Positions 23,624 to 33,642 of a stretch of DNA of 64,000 bases are shown here, one piece after another; position 1 is the stretch's first letter, and every line of letters begins with the position of its first letter. A program made the position numbers and the translations under genes. The notes under the pieces were generated by a model that saw only the letters and a program-made list of their open reading frames with translations, did no database searches and was not told where the DNA came from. Origin of the DNA: Thioclava dalianensis (GTDB taxonomy: Bacteria; Pseudomonadota; Alphaproteobacteria; Rhodobacterales; Rhodobacteraceae); NCBI RefSeq assembly GCF_000715505.1, contig NZ_JHEH01000018.1:1-64000 (forward strand). The letters are read 5' to 3'.

Positions 23624-26518
23624 ATGAAACCCGAATTTGCTCTGATCTTATCGCATGACGGCATTGGCCTGCTTCACCGCACGCGCGCGGGCTGGGCGCG
23701 TCTGGGCGAGGTCTCTCCTGACTCTGAAACGCTCGATGCAGATCTCGCAGCGTTGCGGCGACAGGCTCAGAGCCTTGCGCCGCATGGCATGACGACAAAG
23801 GTGGTCATCCCGGCCTCGCAGATCCTCTACACGGCGATCTATGCGCCCGGCAGCACGCCTGCACAGCGCCACAAGCAGATCGAGGCCGCGCTGGACGGCG
23901 TCACGCCCTACCCGGTCTCGGAACTGGTCTATGATTTTTCGGGCAGTGGCCAGACCGTGCAGGTGGCCGTCGTAGCCCGCGAAACCCTTGCCGAGGCGGA
24001 AGCCTTCGCGCAGTCCCATGGCCTTAACCCGGTCAGCTTCGTGACGATCCCGATCCCCGGCGATTTCACGGGAGAGCCGTGGTTTGGAACGGCCAAGGGG
24101 GCCGCCGCCCATCTGCCCGAAGGGGCGCAGGTCGAACGTGACGACACGCCGATTGCCGATATTGCGGCCGCGCCCGAGACCCTGACTGAGAGCGCAGCGC
24201 CAAACGATGCGTCGGCAGAGCCCCCCGCGTCGGACACTGGCATCAAGCCCCCCGCGCAGACTGAAGAGACAGAGGCTGATCCAGCGCAGGATCTCCACGC
24301 CAATGCGGGCGTCGCCGCCGCCGAAGGCCCCGTGCCCGCAAGCGCCACGCCCGTGATCGCTGAGGCTGAGGCTGAGGCTGAGGCTGAGGAAGCCCTTGCG
24401 CGTCCCACAGCGCCTGTCGAGCCACAAATTCCGGCCGCGACATCCACGCAGGCAAGCGAGCCGGAAGAGACAGTCTCGCCCGAAGATCTGGCCGATTTGG
24501 CAGCCCTTGATGCCGCCCCAGACGAGGGCTCAAAGCTCAAAGAACCAGCGCCTGCCCCCCCGGAGACAGCCGCCCCGCCAAACACCAAAACCCCGTCCAG
24601 CGCCGGGCCGCAGACCGCCGATCCGTTTTCTTCCGCGCGCCTGCTCACGCAGGATGCGACAGCCGCGAGCACGCCGAAGCTTGGCGGCGTCGCGCGCACG
24701 AGTTCTGCACAGGGCGAGCGCCACAAGTCTCTCACCGGTCACGCAGCAATCACGGCGCCGGGGCTTGATCTGCCCGAGCCCACGCCGCCCGCCGATCAGA
24801 AGAAAGACCGCAAGCGCAAGCTCGGTCGGGCCGCGCGCAAGGGGTTGAGCGGGACTGCCGCTCTGGGAGCTGCGGCGCTCTCGGCCCGCGCCAAGGCGAA
24901 AGCCAAGCCCCAACCGGCGACCAAACCCACGACCACTCACGGCCCCGCGCCCTCCGCCGAGACGACCGTTTTCGGCGCGCGCAAAGGCTCTGATCGACTT
25001 GGCAAGCCGCGCTATCTGGGCGCGCTGATGGTCGGCGCGCTGGTTCTGTTTCTAGCGATTGTCGGGCTTTGGACCAGCTTCCTGTCGTCCACCGAAACGC
25101 CCGCGCCACAAGATACGCTGGCCTCGAGTGACACAGCCACAGCCGAGCCACCCGCAGACACGATGGCGGCGCTCGATCCGGCACCTTCCGCCCAGCCAGA
25201 CGCCAGCGCCGAGGCCACGGCCGAGCCCGCCCCCGAGGCGAGCCCCGTTCCGAGCGTGACGCCCGAGGCCGCTCAACCCGACGCGAATGTTGCGACCGCT
25301 GAGCCCGAAACCGCGCAGCCGGACAGCGCGCCGTCTGACACCGCTCAGGCCAACACCGCTCAGTCCGATACCGCACAGGCCGATACAGCACAGACCGACA
25401 CCGCTGCGTCCGCGCCGGAGCAGAGCACCGTCACGGCGGATGCCGCGCCTCAGGCCGCAACGCCGAGCCCCGGCGAGATGCCGCCCTTCACGGCCAAGCC
25501 TCTGCCGCCGCCCAATGTCGCGCCGCCCGAAACCGAGGCAGCCCCGGTCGCGCCAACGAAAGACGGTGTGACTATGCCGGGCGGGTTTACGCTTTACGCG
25601 GGCAAGCCCCCGATCGCCTCGCGTGCGCGGCCCCAAAGCGTATCGCAGGCCTATGCGGCAACGCTGCCGCCGGCTCCGCTGCGCCCGGAAGACACGCTCA
25701 ACGCTCTGCCTGCGTTGGCGCCGTTCCAACCAACGCCGCGCCCCCAGACGCTTGCCGCGCCAGATCAGACCGCTGCGCAGACACCGGCCGCCAGCCCCCT
25801 GCCGGCGCAAAACGACCCCTCACTCGCAGACGCGCGTCCGGTGCTGCGCCCGGCGGCGATCTCGAGCAAGGCTCAGGAGACACCCACTCAGACCGCCCCC
25901 TCGAGCGCGGATGATGCCGCAGTTGCCACGCCGCTGCCGCAAGATCCACAGCTTGCGGGCCTGTCGCCAAAGGCGCGGCCCTCAAGCGTCGCTGATGCGG
26001 CACAGGCTGCCAAGGCCGCCGCCGAGGCCGCAGCGGCGGAAGAAGCAAAGCGCTTTGCCACAGCCACCCCTCTGGCGGTCGAAGCCTCGGCCCGCCCGCC
26101 TGAAAAGCCGCGCGATTTCTCGCGCTCGGTCGAGGCGGCGCTGGCCGCAGCAATCGCCACACCCCAAGCCCCCGCGCAAACGGCCGCAGCGGCCCCCACC
26201 CCAGCCCCTGCGGCTCAGGCGCCGGATCTTGATGAGCCGGAGCCGACCCAGCCCGCACCGCGCCTGCCGACCTCGGCATCGGTCGCCAAACGCGCCACCG
26301 AGCAAGGCGCGATCAACCTGCGCCAGATGAACTTGATTGGGCTCTATGGCTCCTCCGCGAGCCGCCGTGCGCTGATCCGGCTCAAGACCGGGCGTTTCGT
26401 CAAGGTCGGCGTCGGAGACCGGCTGGACGGCGGGACGGTTCTGGCGATTGGCTCGAACCAGTTGACCTATCAAAAAGGGTCACGCGCCTACACGCTGAAA
26501 ATGCTGCAAGGCGGCTAG
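23624..26518 (+). CDS. very large Pro/Ala-rich single-pass membrane protein with PilP/GspC-like C terminus
   Basis: A 964-residue protein. Residues 1-155 form a compact N-terminal domain (SQILYTAIYAPGSTPAQRHK, LDGVTPYPVSELVYDFSG) that recalls the cytoplasmic actin-like domain of PilM/GspL proteins. About 155-460 is an acidic Ala/Glu/Pro-rich linker. One membrane helix lies near 463-487 (GALMVGALVLFLAIVGLW). A second disordered Ala/Pro/Thr linker of some 400 residues leads to a last folded piece of 65 residues (LIGLYGSSASRRALIRLKTG, VKVGVGDRLDGGTVLAIG) with the pattern of PilP/GspC periplasmic domains. Weak ribosome-binding site (CGAGATG) before the ATG at 23624. Function is unknown; a role in envelope-spanning assembly is my inference. 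Confidence 0.75.
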   Translation: MKPEFALILSHDGIGLLHRTRAGWARLGEVSPDSETLDADLAALRRQAQSLAPHGMTTKVVIPASQILYTAIYAPGSTPAQRHKQIEAALDGVTPYPVSELVYDFSGSGQTVQVAVVARETLAEAEAFAQSHGLNPVSFVTIPIPGDFTGEPWFGTAKGAAAHLPEGAQVERDDTPIADIAAAPETLTESAAPNDASAEPPASDTGIKPPAQTEETEADPAQDLHANAGVAAAEGPVPASATPVIAEAEAEAEAEEALARPTAPVEPQIPAATSTQASEPEETVSPEDLADLAALDAAPDEGSKLKEPAPAPPETAAPPNTKTPSSAGPQTADPFSSARLLTQDATAASTPKLGGVARTSSAQGERHKSLTGHAAITAPGLDLPEPTPPADQKKDRKRKLGRAARKGLSGTAALGAAALSARAKAKAKPQPATKPTTTHGPAPSAETTVFGARKGSDRLGKPRYLGALMVGALVLFLAIVGLWTSFLSSTETPAPQDTLASSDTATAEPPADTMAALDPAPSAQPDASAEATAEPAPEASPVPSVTPEAAQPDANVATAEPETAQPDSAPSDTAQANTAQSDTAQADTAQTDTAASAPEQSTVTADAAPQAATPSPGEMPPFTAKPLPPPNVAPPETEAAPVAPTKDGVTMPGGFTLYAGKPPIASRARPQSVSQAYAATLPPAPLRPEDTLNALPALAPFQPTPRPQTLAAPDQTAAQTPAASPLPAQNDPSLADARPVLRPAAISSKAQETPTQTAPSSADDAAVATPLPQDPQLAGLSPKARPSSVADAAQAAKAAAEAAAAEEAKRFATATPLAVEASARPPEKPRDFSRSVEAALAAAIATPQAPAQTAAAAPTPAPAAQAPDLDEPEPTQPAPRLPTSASVAKRATEQGAINLRQMNLIGLYGSSASRRALIRLKTGRFVKVGVGDRLDGGTVLAIGSNQLTYQKGSRAYTLKMLQGG
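24359..24388 (+). repeat. hexanucleotide repeat (GCTGAG)5 in coding sequence
   Basis: Five perfect copies of GCTGAG, read as Ala-Glu repeats in the first linker of the 964-residue membrane protein. Unit length is a multiple of three, so changes in copy number keep the frame. Confidence 0.95.
25334..25408 (+). repeat. 15-base coding repeat (x-D/N-T-A-Q)5
   Basis: Five 15-base units coding SDTAQ, ANTAQ, SDTAQ, ADTAQ and TDTAA in the second linker of the same protein; units differ at synonymous and first-codon positions. Confidence 0.9.
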
Positions 26519-30828: not shown

Positions 30829-33642
30829 TTACTTCTTGTCCTTGAGCGCTGCGAGCACGGCAAAGGGGTTGTCGGGATCGATCGGCTTTTCCTTGCGCGG
30901 CGGACGCGCTTCGAAATTGCGCGCGCCTCCCCCTTCGGGTTTGCCGCCCTTCTTGCCCTTTTTGCCCTGCGGACGCCCGCCCTTGCGCTCACCGCGCGGG
31001 GCATCGGAATTGCCGCCATCGCGACGCGGTCCACGGGGATTGGCACGCGGGCGCGGGGCCCATGTGAAGGTGTAGAAAGTCTCGACCTCGGGGGCGCTCT
31101 CTGCCTCGGCGGGTGCCGCATCTGCCGGTGCCTCTTCGGCAGCGGGTGCAGTGTCCGGCTGGCTCTCAGACGCTGAGGGCGCGCCTGCCGCATCCGGGCT
31201 GTCAGCCTCAGGCGCGGTCGCGGCTTCCGATGCGGGCTTGGCGGGATCAGCGGGCTTGACCTTGGGGCGTTCGCCCTGCTCGGCCTTATAGCCCAAACCG
31301 CCCATCAGATCGGCGAATTGCTCCAGCGTCATGCCGGTGATCGAGAGCATGTCGGGATTGGCCTCGAACCCACCGCGACTGTCTTGGCCGCGCAGCAGAT
31401 CTGCCAGACGCTCAAGCATGTCGATGCGAATCGCGCGCGCGCCGGACGGACGATAGCCCGAGAGACGGTAGGCCTCCGGCTCGAACCCTTCAATATTGGG
31501 GATCGTGACCAGACCGGGGGGCGGGCTTTCGGGGAATTCGTCGCGCCCATCCCAAAGCGAGGCCAGCACAAGGCGCAACCGCGTCGGTGCAGGCTTGAGA
31601 AGGGCGGGCATGAAGATCGTGTACTGACCAAAGCGCACGCCATGCTTGCGCAGGCTGCCACGCGCTTCCTGATCCAGTTCCTTGACCTCGGCGGCCACCT
31701 GATCGCGCGGGATGATGCCCAGCGTTTCCACCAGCCGGAAGGCAAAGCCACGGGCGAGCCCGGTCAGCGCCTCGTCGCGGCTCATCGCCAGAAGCGGCTC
31801 GAAAAGGGCGGCCACCTTGCGGTCGATGAAGTGCTGCAAGCGGCGCGTAACCTTCTCGGCCACGTCTGATCCGGCCTCGTCATCGACGAAAGCCTGAACG
31901 GAGGGGCGCATCACATCGCCGCCCTTGACCAGCTTGCCCACCGCGGTGTCGCCCCACATGAGGCCACCCTGCTCGGTGAAATCCATCTCGGTATCGGGGG
32001 CGTTATAGAAACGGTCCGCGCGCAGATTGAACTCGGGCGCGAGCGCCTCATAGGCCGCACGGGCGAGCATCTTTGCCTCATCGGGCGACCCGGTTTCATC
32101 CTGACGGAACCGGAACCCATCCAGACGGCCGGCATATTCGCCCTCAACCGTCACTTCGCCCTTGTCATTCACCTCGGCCACGAGGGTCTCCTTCTGCTTG
32201 AGCCGGCGCAGCAACACAGAGGTGCGCCGGTCCACAAATCGTTGGGTCAAAGCGCCGTGGAGCGCATCTGACAGGCGGTCTTCTACAGCGCGGGTCGCCT
32301 CGCGCCAATGGCTTTCGTCATCGACCCAGCCCTTGCGTTGCGCAACATAGGTCCAAGTGCGGATAAAAGCGAGCCTGCGCGACAGCGTATCGATATCTCC
32401 GCCGGTGCGGTCGATCCGCTCGATCTGGCGTCTCAGCCAATCCGAGGGCACCCCGCGCCCCGACTGCAAAAAGCCGAAAATCCGCGCCAAGAGCGTTGCA
32501 TGCTCGGCCTCGGAAATCGAGCGAAAATCAGGGATTCGGCACACATCCCAAAGCAATTGCACATCGCTTGGGCGGCTCACCCGGTCACGCACCTCCGGAT
32601 CTTCGCCAAGCACCTTGAGCGCGCGCAGGTCATCGGCCTCGCGTCCCTTGGTGAGCCATTCTCCGCCGTCGCGCGGCTCGGGCCGGGCCTCAAGCGCGCC
32701 GATCAGGCGGTCAAGCGTGCCAAATTCCAACCGGTCATTGCGCCATTGCAGCCGCTGGAGCGGCGCGAAGCGGTGGTTTTCGATGGCATCGACAATCTCG
32801 GGCTGAAGCGGGCTTGCCTCACCCGTGACCCCAAAAGTCCCGTCTGTCGTGTGCCGCCCCGCGCGGCCCGCGATCTGGGCCAGCTCATAGGGAAAGAGCG
32901 GGCGCATCCGGCGACCATCGAATTTCGACGTGGCCGAAAAGGCGACATGGTCGATATCGAGGTTCAGCCCCATCCCGATCGCATCGGTGGCGACCAGATA
33001 ATCGACATCGCCATTTTGATACATCGCCACCTGCGCGTTGCGCGTGCGCGGGCTGAGCGCGCCCATCACCACCGCACAGCCGCCTTTCTGGCGGCGGATC
33101 AGCTCGGCCATGGCATAGGTATTCTCGACCGAAAACCCGACGATGGCAGAGCGCGGCTTCATCCGAGAAATCTTCTTGGAGCCTGCATAGGTAAGCTCCG
33201 AGAAGCGCTCACGCTTGGAAAACTGCACCTTGGGCACCAGAGCCGCAATCGCCCCGCGCATCGTTTCCGATCCCAGAAACAGCGTCTCGTGCAAGCCCCG
33301 CGCGTGCAACAAGCGGTCTGTGAAGACATGGCCGCGCTCGGGATCGCCGCAGAGCTGGATCTCGTCGATGGCCAGAAAATCCGCGCCGATATTGGTCGGC
33401 ATCGCCTCGGTCGTGGCCACCCAATATTGCGTGCGCTCGGGCACGATGCGCTCTTCGCCGGTGACCAAAGCCACCACGCTTGGCCCGCGCTGCGCCACGA
33501 TCCGGTCATAGACCTCGCGCGCGAGCAGACGCAGCGGCAGCCCGATGACGCCGGTCCGATGCGCCAGCATCCGCTCAATTGCGTAATGGGTCTTGCCAGT
33601 ATTGGTCGGCCCCAGCACGGCCGTGATCCGCCCGGTTTGCAT
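30829..33642 (-). CDS. SUV3-like DExH/DEAD RNA helicase
   Basis: A 937-residue helicase. Walker A GPTNTGKTH (residues 11-19), DExH-type box AIDEIQL, motif IV-VI region ATDAIGMGLNLDIDHVAFSA and QIAGRAGRHTTDG. This organisation matches mitochondrial SUV3 and its alphaproteobacterial relatives, which unwind RNA for degradation. Residues from about 755 are an Ala/Pro/Glu-rich linker followed by a strongly basic Gly/Arg/Lys tail (PRANPRGPRRDGG, RPQGKKGKKGGKPEGGG), likely an RNA-binding disordered region. Downstream S4 protein, fdxA and carD form a conserved neighbourhood. Confidence 0.92.
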   Translation of the reverse strand: MQTGRITAVLGPTNTGKTHYAIERMLAHRTGVIGLPLRLLAREVYDRIVAQRGPSVVALVTGEERIVPERTQYWVATTEAMPTNIGADFLAIDEIQLCGDPERGHVFTDRLLHARGLHETLFLGSETMRGAIAALVPKVQFSKRERFSELTYAGSKKISRMKPRSAIVGFSVENTYAMAELIRRQKGGCAVVMGALSPRTRNAQVAMYQNGDVDYLVATDAIGMGLNLDIDHVAFSATSKFDGRRMRPLFPYELAQIAGRAGRHTTDGTFGVTGEASPLQPEIVDAIENHRFAPLQRLQWRNDRLEFGTLDRLIGALEARPEPRDGGEWLTKGREADDLRALKVLGEDPEVRDRVSRPSDVQLLWDVCRIPDFRSISEAEHATLLARIFGFLQSGRGVPSDWLRRQIERIDRTGGDIDTLSRRLAFIRTWTYVAQRKGWVDDESHWREATRAVEDRLSDALHGALTQRFVDRRTSVLLRRLKQKETLVAEVNDKGEVTVEGEYAGRLDGFRFRQDETGSPDEAKMLARAAYEALAPEFNLRADRFYNAPDTEMDFTEQGGLMWGDTAVGKLVKGGDVMRPSVQAFVDDEAGSDVAEKVTRRLQHFIDRKVAALFEPLLAMSRDEALTGLARGFAFRLVETLGIIPRDQVAAEVKELDQEARGSLRKHGVRFGQYTIFMPALLKPAPTRLRLVLASLWDGRDEFPESPPPGLVTIPNIEGFEPEAYRLSGYRPSGARAIRIDMLERLADLLRGQDSRGGFEANPDMLSITGMTLEQFADLMGGLGYKAEQGERPKVKPADPAKPASEAATAPEADSPDAAGAPSASESQPDTAPAAEEAPADAAPAEAESAPEVETFYTFTWAPRPRANPRGPRRDGGNSDAPRGERKGGRPQGKKGKKGGKPEGGGARNFEARPPRKEKPIDPDNPFAVLAALKDKK

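Follow-up and report, generated by a model that had tools for sequence, protein, structure and literature searches.

A gene in the window, the whole 64,000-nucleotide stretch of Thioclava dalianensis DNA analysed here, encodes a 964-residue protein that joins a GspL/PilM-type lobe, predicted to be cytoplasmic, to a GspC-HR/PilP-type domain, predicted to be periplasmic. The fusion is a single-copy core gene of the Rhodobacteraceae. The known role of HR/PilP domains is to bind secretins, and that of GspL/PilM lobes is to offer docking sites in pilus and secretion platforms. The protein described here is not a subunit of a type II secretion system (T2SS) or of a type IV pilus, and probably spans the cell envelope as a bridge in its own right. 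That it is a self-contained trans-envelope scaffold, similar to GspB/OutB and equipped with a GspL-type lobe, with a partner other than, or in addition to, a secretin, we regard as about evenly balanced. The supporting observations are the folds of both ends, their occurrence in one chain across the family, the retention of the gene in genomes with and without a secretin, and a motif and charge bias along the chain.

Results

The conserved parts of the chain are two end domains, a juxtamembrane motif and two islands in an otherwise variable periplasmic linker. A GTG 54 bases upstream of the ATG would extend the frame to 982 codons; the start kept by homologues, MKPxFAL, is the ATG of the 964-codon frame. 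The features are listed by position in the window.

23624..26518, + strand: coding sequence of the bitopic protein P0001, 964 residues (frame open from ATG; same start in homologues)
23624..24094, + strand: N-lobe, cytoplasmic, residues 1-157, GspL/PilM-type (AlphaFold2; Foldseek and VIA against EpsL/GspL and PilM; TIGR01709)
24095..24949, + strand: cytoplasmic linker, Ala/Pro/Glu-rich, residues 158-442, variable in length and sequence (composition; poor conservation; dN/dS mostly above that of the domains)
24950..25015, + strand: conserved, positively charged juxtamembrane motif TVFGAR...GKPRYLG, residues 443-464 (full-length homologue alignment; charge count)
25016..25084, + strand: single transmembrane helix, about residues 465-487 (lone hydropathy peak)
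25085..26278, + strand: periplasmic linker, Ala/Pro-rich, residues 488-885 (composition; in-frame tandem repeat at 25295-25404)
25535..25648, + strand: conserved periplasmic-linker island PTxEGxxxPGGFTLYAGRPPxVPPxRP, residues 638-675 (homologue alignment)
25835..25852, + strand: RPxxRP motif (RPVLRP), residues 738-743 (sequence reading; motif excess in periplasmic linkers)
26045..26137, + strand: conserved periplasmic-linker island FATATxLAVxxSxRPxxRPRxFxRxVE, residues 808-838 (homologue alignment)
26279..26515, + strand: C-terminal periplasmic domain, GspC-HR/PilP fold, residues 886-964, core about 899-961 (AlphaFold2; VIA against GspC-HR; TIGR03021)

This is the layout that an earlier, sequence-only reading of the DNA had described: a folded start, a disordered stretch, one helix, about 400 disordered residues and a small folded end. 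Disorder of the linkers is called from composition and length variation. Hydropathy gives one peak only, 2.52 at residue 465, and charge counts show more positive charge in the 20 residues preceding the helix than in the 20 following it, in 26 of 26 homologues; this bias predicts an N-in, C-out topology. We counted 52 RPxxRP motifs in the periplasmic linkers of the 26 homologues, against 0.7 expected from residue shuffles, and none in their cytoplasmic linkers, which are of about equal total length. Both linkers of the window protein carry DNA repeats, a 6-base GCTGAG unit in 5.2 copies (24359-24389) and a 15/30-base repeat (25295-25404); because the periods are multiples of three, linker length can change with the frame intact. 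The divergent homologue of G016 has no linker between lobe and helix, an arrangement also seen in GspL; a long linker and the HR domain follow. One genus without the lobe (G030) has a 223-residue protein at L119:6051-6719 (+) composed of a signal peptide, RPRP repeats and an HR domain, which is consistent with a periplasmic HR domain.

The N-lobe was modelled with AlphaFold2 from a 27-sequence alignment at pLDDT 95. Foldseek placed GspL/EpsL first (E 6e-8), then PilM (E 5e-7) and then FtsA. With VIA-align, cyto-EpsL/GspL (1yf5) scored Z 12.1 over 146 residues at an rmsd of 3.0, PilM (5eou) Z 10.9 for residues 1-156, and FtsA Z 8.7. The NCBIfam GspL model TIGR01709 recognises the lobe in 13 of 27 members, with E 3.8e-8 at best. 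The window protein itself falls below the curated GspL cut-offs, with 20.9 bits against 65 for TIGR01709 and 13.7 against 25.5 for T2SSL PF05134. Along the model the elements run as three strands, a helix and a strand, then a strand-helix-strand-strand unit, then a helix and a strand; we read this order as a single RNase H-like half into which an SHS2-type unit is inserted. Only the first lobe of the two-lobed, ATP-binding PilM-type fold is present in the conserved domain and the model. The lobe has nothing to match some 80 residues of cyto-EpsL or the second half of PilM, so we would not expect an ATP cleft. The PilM/GspL-like start proposed earlier is thus borne out by structure prediction and fold comparison, with the GspL type first and the PilM type second, as a partial copy of about 157 of 230-350 residues. 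A PDB sequence search with the lobe returned repeat proteins only, which we took as composition noise; the assignment comes from the fold comparison.

The C-terminal domain was modelled with a core pLDDT of about 90, and its best VIA match was the GspC HR domain (3oss_C, Z 9.7, rmsd 1.6, 60 residues). PilP followed at Z 8.5-9.1, with LspC also among the best and GspB (4wfw) at Z 6.2; the next unrelated fold scored Z 4.1. The NCBIfam pilP_fam model TIGR03021 recognises this domain in every one of the 27 members, with a best E of 9.7e-9. Again, the window protein misses the curated cut-offs, at 20.5 bits against 34.65 for TIGR03021 and 14.2 against 25.6 for PF04351, and a PDB profile search found GspC and PilP at E 0.1-0.3 only. 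Structure prediction, VIA and NCBIfam together uphold the PilP/GspC-like end that had been read from the letters. Given that curated cut-offs and system context both failed, we do not file the protein under GspL, GspC or PilP.

Several genera also carry a small HR-only paralogue of about 85-106 residues that lacks a signal peptide or membrane helix and appears to be a cytosolic PilP/GspC-type domain (L100:6838-7101, L101:6838-7092, L103:6738-7052 and L122:5631-5957, all +; L102:6795-7064, L120:6169-6486 and L123:6544-6840, all -). In L100-L103 its gene is flanked by purF and a short-chain dehydrogenase gene, with surE close by. It was not detected in the genome of the window.

The motif excess (52 against 0.7) would also suit an organiser of the cell wall, the pole or division, whose RPxxRP linker would bind to the wall or to envelope proteins and whose ends would self-associate, with no outer-membrane partner, and the actin-like fold common to GspL-type lobes and FtsA lends this some appeal. 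We consider it unlikely, as the FtsA likeness of the lobe is below that to GspL/PilM (Z 8.7 against 12.1) and the strong conservation of the HR domain points to a specific partner.

Outside the family, the lobe profile finds GspL-sized genes and the C-domain profile GspC-sized genes among the best 9-13 candidates per genome. In a genome of another family (G368, locus L105), a GspL-sized and a GspC-sized gene lie in one operon with GspE-, F-, G-, H- and I-like genes and a secretin-sized gene (names by eye). That the two end profiles lead to separate genes of one T2SS-like operon is evidence of a common descent of both ends with GspL and GspC.

A profile (alignment A1) matches 187 of 198 genomes, sampled as one per Rhodobacteraceae genus, and 167 of the 174 of good quality (96%), almost always in single copy. 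A query with the N-lobe of the window had matches in 43 of the 49 Rhodobacteraceae genomes searched (the host included) and in none of 32 other families of the class; the class-wide profile searches with lobe and C-domain scored the best 9-13 candidates per genome, which makes absence outside the family soft. The closest homologue is in the relative G002 (contig C12). Nearly thirty complete homologues span 802-1323 residues, with both ends conserved and the linkers varying freely. Nei-Gojobori dN/dS is 0.13-0.33 in the end domains, a rough value given that synonymous sites are near saturation, and in most comparisons the linkers, under the same saturation, lie above the end domains. Presence in 187 of 198 genera and these ratios show that the frame is not a chance open reading frame.

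In two genomes the gene is split into two overlapping frames, the lobe and then the HR part (L058:5950-7340, +; L125:597-3493, -), by a natural split, a frameshift or an assembly error. These copies, and the loss of the gene in some genera, are what a decaying fusion left from a lost T2SS and without present function would produce. Such a remnant is hardly credible against 96% retention in good genomes, a single copy and purifying selection on both domains. In the plasmid collection there was one match only, to an unannotated 1.6-Mb Pseudorhodobacter replicon.

The gene has a conserved chromosomal site among ordinary housekeeping genes: a Cys/Met PLP enzyme is encoded upstream in the same direction (29 loci), a cation/proton antiporter downstream (24 loci), and CarD lies beyond it. 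A LysE-type transporter is also found nearby; no gspA or gsp cluster adjoins the gene, and the conserved neighbours include no Tad or other secretion genes. At L003 and about 14 other loci, a divergent signal-peptide protein of about 227 residues (SIMPL/DUF541-like by eye) lies about 840-155 bases upstream; it is not beside the window copy. Elsewhere in the window, a Suv3-type RNA helicase at 30829-33642 (-), recognised by its Pfam helicase domains, has an Ala/Pro/Gly/Arg-rich C-terminal tail of about 200 residues.

The only secretin of the host genome is the CpaC of its Tad cluster (L080), on another contig. Three PF00437 matches were found, all on other contigs: the Tad ATPase on C39 (2.5e-69) and weaker, shorter open reading frames on C48 and C49. 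An MshEN domain on C27 is fused to no PF00437 match. T2SSL and PilN searches of the host genome found neither, and PilN is absent from nearly all relatives; a cognate T2SS, looked for as a GspE with MshEN and T2SSE together with GspD, is lacking in this genome. The earlier observation that no secretion genes are near the gene therefore stands, with the only secretin and all three PF00437 matches located elsewhere.

Of the 158 good genomes with a secretin, 152 carry the gene, as do 15 of the 16 that lack one (Fisher p 0.50, n = 174). This lack of association supports independence of the gene from secretin presence. Some of the matches in no-secretin genomes are weak (E 1e-10 to 1e-21), and at least eight of the 16 are strong cases (E below 1e-30); in six no-secretin genomes (G012, G454, G465, G514, G545 and G564) both domains lie in one open frame. 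G012 has neither a secretin nor a PF00437 ATPase match, and keeps an intact copy of 1264 residues. The idea of a stand-alone system, also put forward from the sequence, gains from the genomes without secretin, and from G012 as one that also lacks a T2SS, type IV pilus or Tad ATPase match; the C-domain would presumably reach an outer-membrane partner.

These counts bear directly on a role as a Tad pilus accessory, in which the HR domain would align the CpaC secretin and the lobe would meet the Tad base, giving an alignment complex of a kind not known from Tad systems. CpaC is the sole secretin of the host, a secretin occurs in most of the Rhodobacteraceae (176 of the 198 sampled genomes) and characterised HR domains bind secretins (PMC9239104). 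We nevertheless think this quite unlikely, as 15 of the 16 good genomes that lack a secretin retain the gene, G012 has no PF00437 match either, the host tad cluster is on another contig and the conserved neighbourhood is free of Tad genes.

GspL binds the N-terminal part of GspE. By analogy, the lobe might bind the N-terminal MshEN domain (c-di-GMP receptor-type) of the family's membrane glycosyltransferase in a scaffold for exopolysaccharide synthesis controlled by c-di-GMP, with the HR domain meeting an outer-membrane export partner. A search of 31 family genomes found MshEN in 30, including those that have no secretion ATPase, and the sole exception, G029, has the studied gene split. The copies at L138:4573-6618 (+), L139 and L141 look by eye like membrane glycosyltransferases rather than secretion ATPases, and MshEN-glycosyltransferase fusions can occur (PMC5013675). 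We rate this as very unlikely: there is no genetic linkage, both MshEN and the gene are near-universal, so that co-occurrence says little, and G030 retains a glycosyltransferase fragment although its lobe is lost.

Discussion

We favour a self-contained trans-envelope scaffold; that both ends bind partners, that the chain touches the wall and that it acts as a tether are inferred. In such a scaffold, the GspL/PilM-type lobe would hold a cytoplasmic or inner-membrane partner and the single helix would anchor the chain in the inner membrane. The long, flexible periplasmic linker would pass through or along the cell wall, which its basic RPxxRP motifs may contact, and the HR/PilP-type domain at the tip would pair strands with a partner in the periplasm or outer membrane and so dock on it, in the way that HR domains engage the N0 domains of secretins. 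Support comes from both end folds, from the one chain kept family-wide and even in the divergent G016, from the core-gene status and secretin independence, from the RPxxRP and charge biases, from the absence of PilN in the host and nearly all relatives, and from GspB/OutB as a precedent. Against it, each HR domain that has been characterised to date, in GspC, PilP and GspB, binds secretin N0 (PMC9239104), and 176 of 198 genomes do have a secretin. Further, the HR-only paralogue without an export signal in several genera means that the HR fold in Rhodobacteraceae need not act in the periplasm, and the OutB-type wall box with its terminal Lys is missing.

A more far-reaching form of the proposal, to which we give somewhat less than an even chance, is a family-wide, one-protein, secretin-independent bridge built from both ends of a T2SS inner-membrane platform, a GspL lobe and a GspC HR domain; its outer partner would be new, and its linker would carry an RPxxRP code confined to the periplasm. 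HR domains would then have another partner class, as the near-universal fusion that survives the absence of secretins implies. Parts of the T2SS platform would have been taken over for envelope organisation in the Rhodobacteraceae, a large and ecologically important family.

A search of the open-access literature, a weak test confined to that part of the record, found no GspL-GspC fusion, GspL-lobe/HR fusion or Rhodobacteraceae PilP-like protein. A 2007 catalogue lists 29 Rhodobacterales signature proteins, several of them unnamed hypotheticals (PMC2241609).

In the known systems, GspL uses its cytoplasmic domain to keep the ATPase GspE at the membrane (PMC3815138), and the HR domains of GspC, PilP and GspB bind the N0 domains of secretins (PMC3169554, PMC9239104). 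Residues 1-157 match GspL best, by fold and by sequence, but make up about two thirds of its cytoplasmic part (about 230 residues); the periplasmic ferredoxin-like domain of GspL is absent, and the host genome has no T2SS. With PilM, a soluble protein of about 350 residues that binds ATP and the PilN tail, the fold is common over residues 1-156, about half of the PilM fold. Residues ~899-961 are like the GspC HR domain and PilP in fold and sequence, whereas here the domain is joined to a GspL-type lobe, lacks a PDZ domain, is not part of a lipoprotein and is kept without a secretin. Fused platform subunits are known from EpsAB in Vibrio (PMC9239104) and from PilO-PilP of Pseudomonas putida (cited in PMC3169554); the latter joins different subunits and remains within the type IV pilus system. 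The closest comparison is GspB/OutB, a tether between the secretin, the inner membrane and the wall, which it reaches through a C-terminal Lys in an Lpp-like box (PMC12274547); the window protein instead ends in ...KMLQGG. Both proteins have an inner-membrane helix, a variable periplasmic linker and an HR domain of the same fold (4wfw). OutB, however, is without a GspL lobe, is part of a T2SS and binds secretin N0; the present protein has a GspL lobe and occurs without a T2SS, and often without any secretin. Fusions of platform subunits are known as such; what is new here is the form of the HR scaffold.
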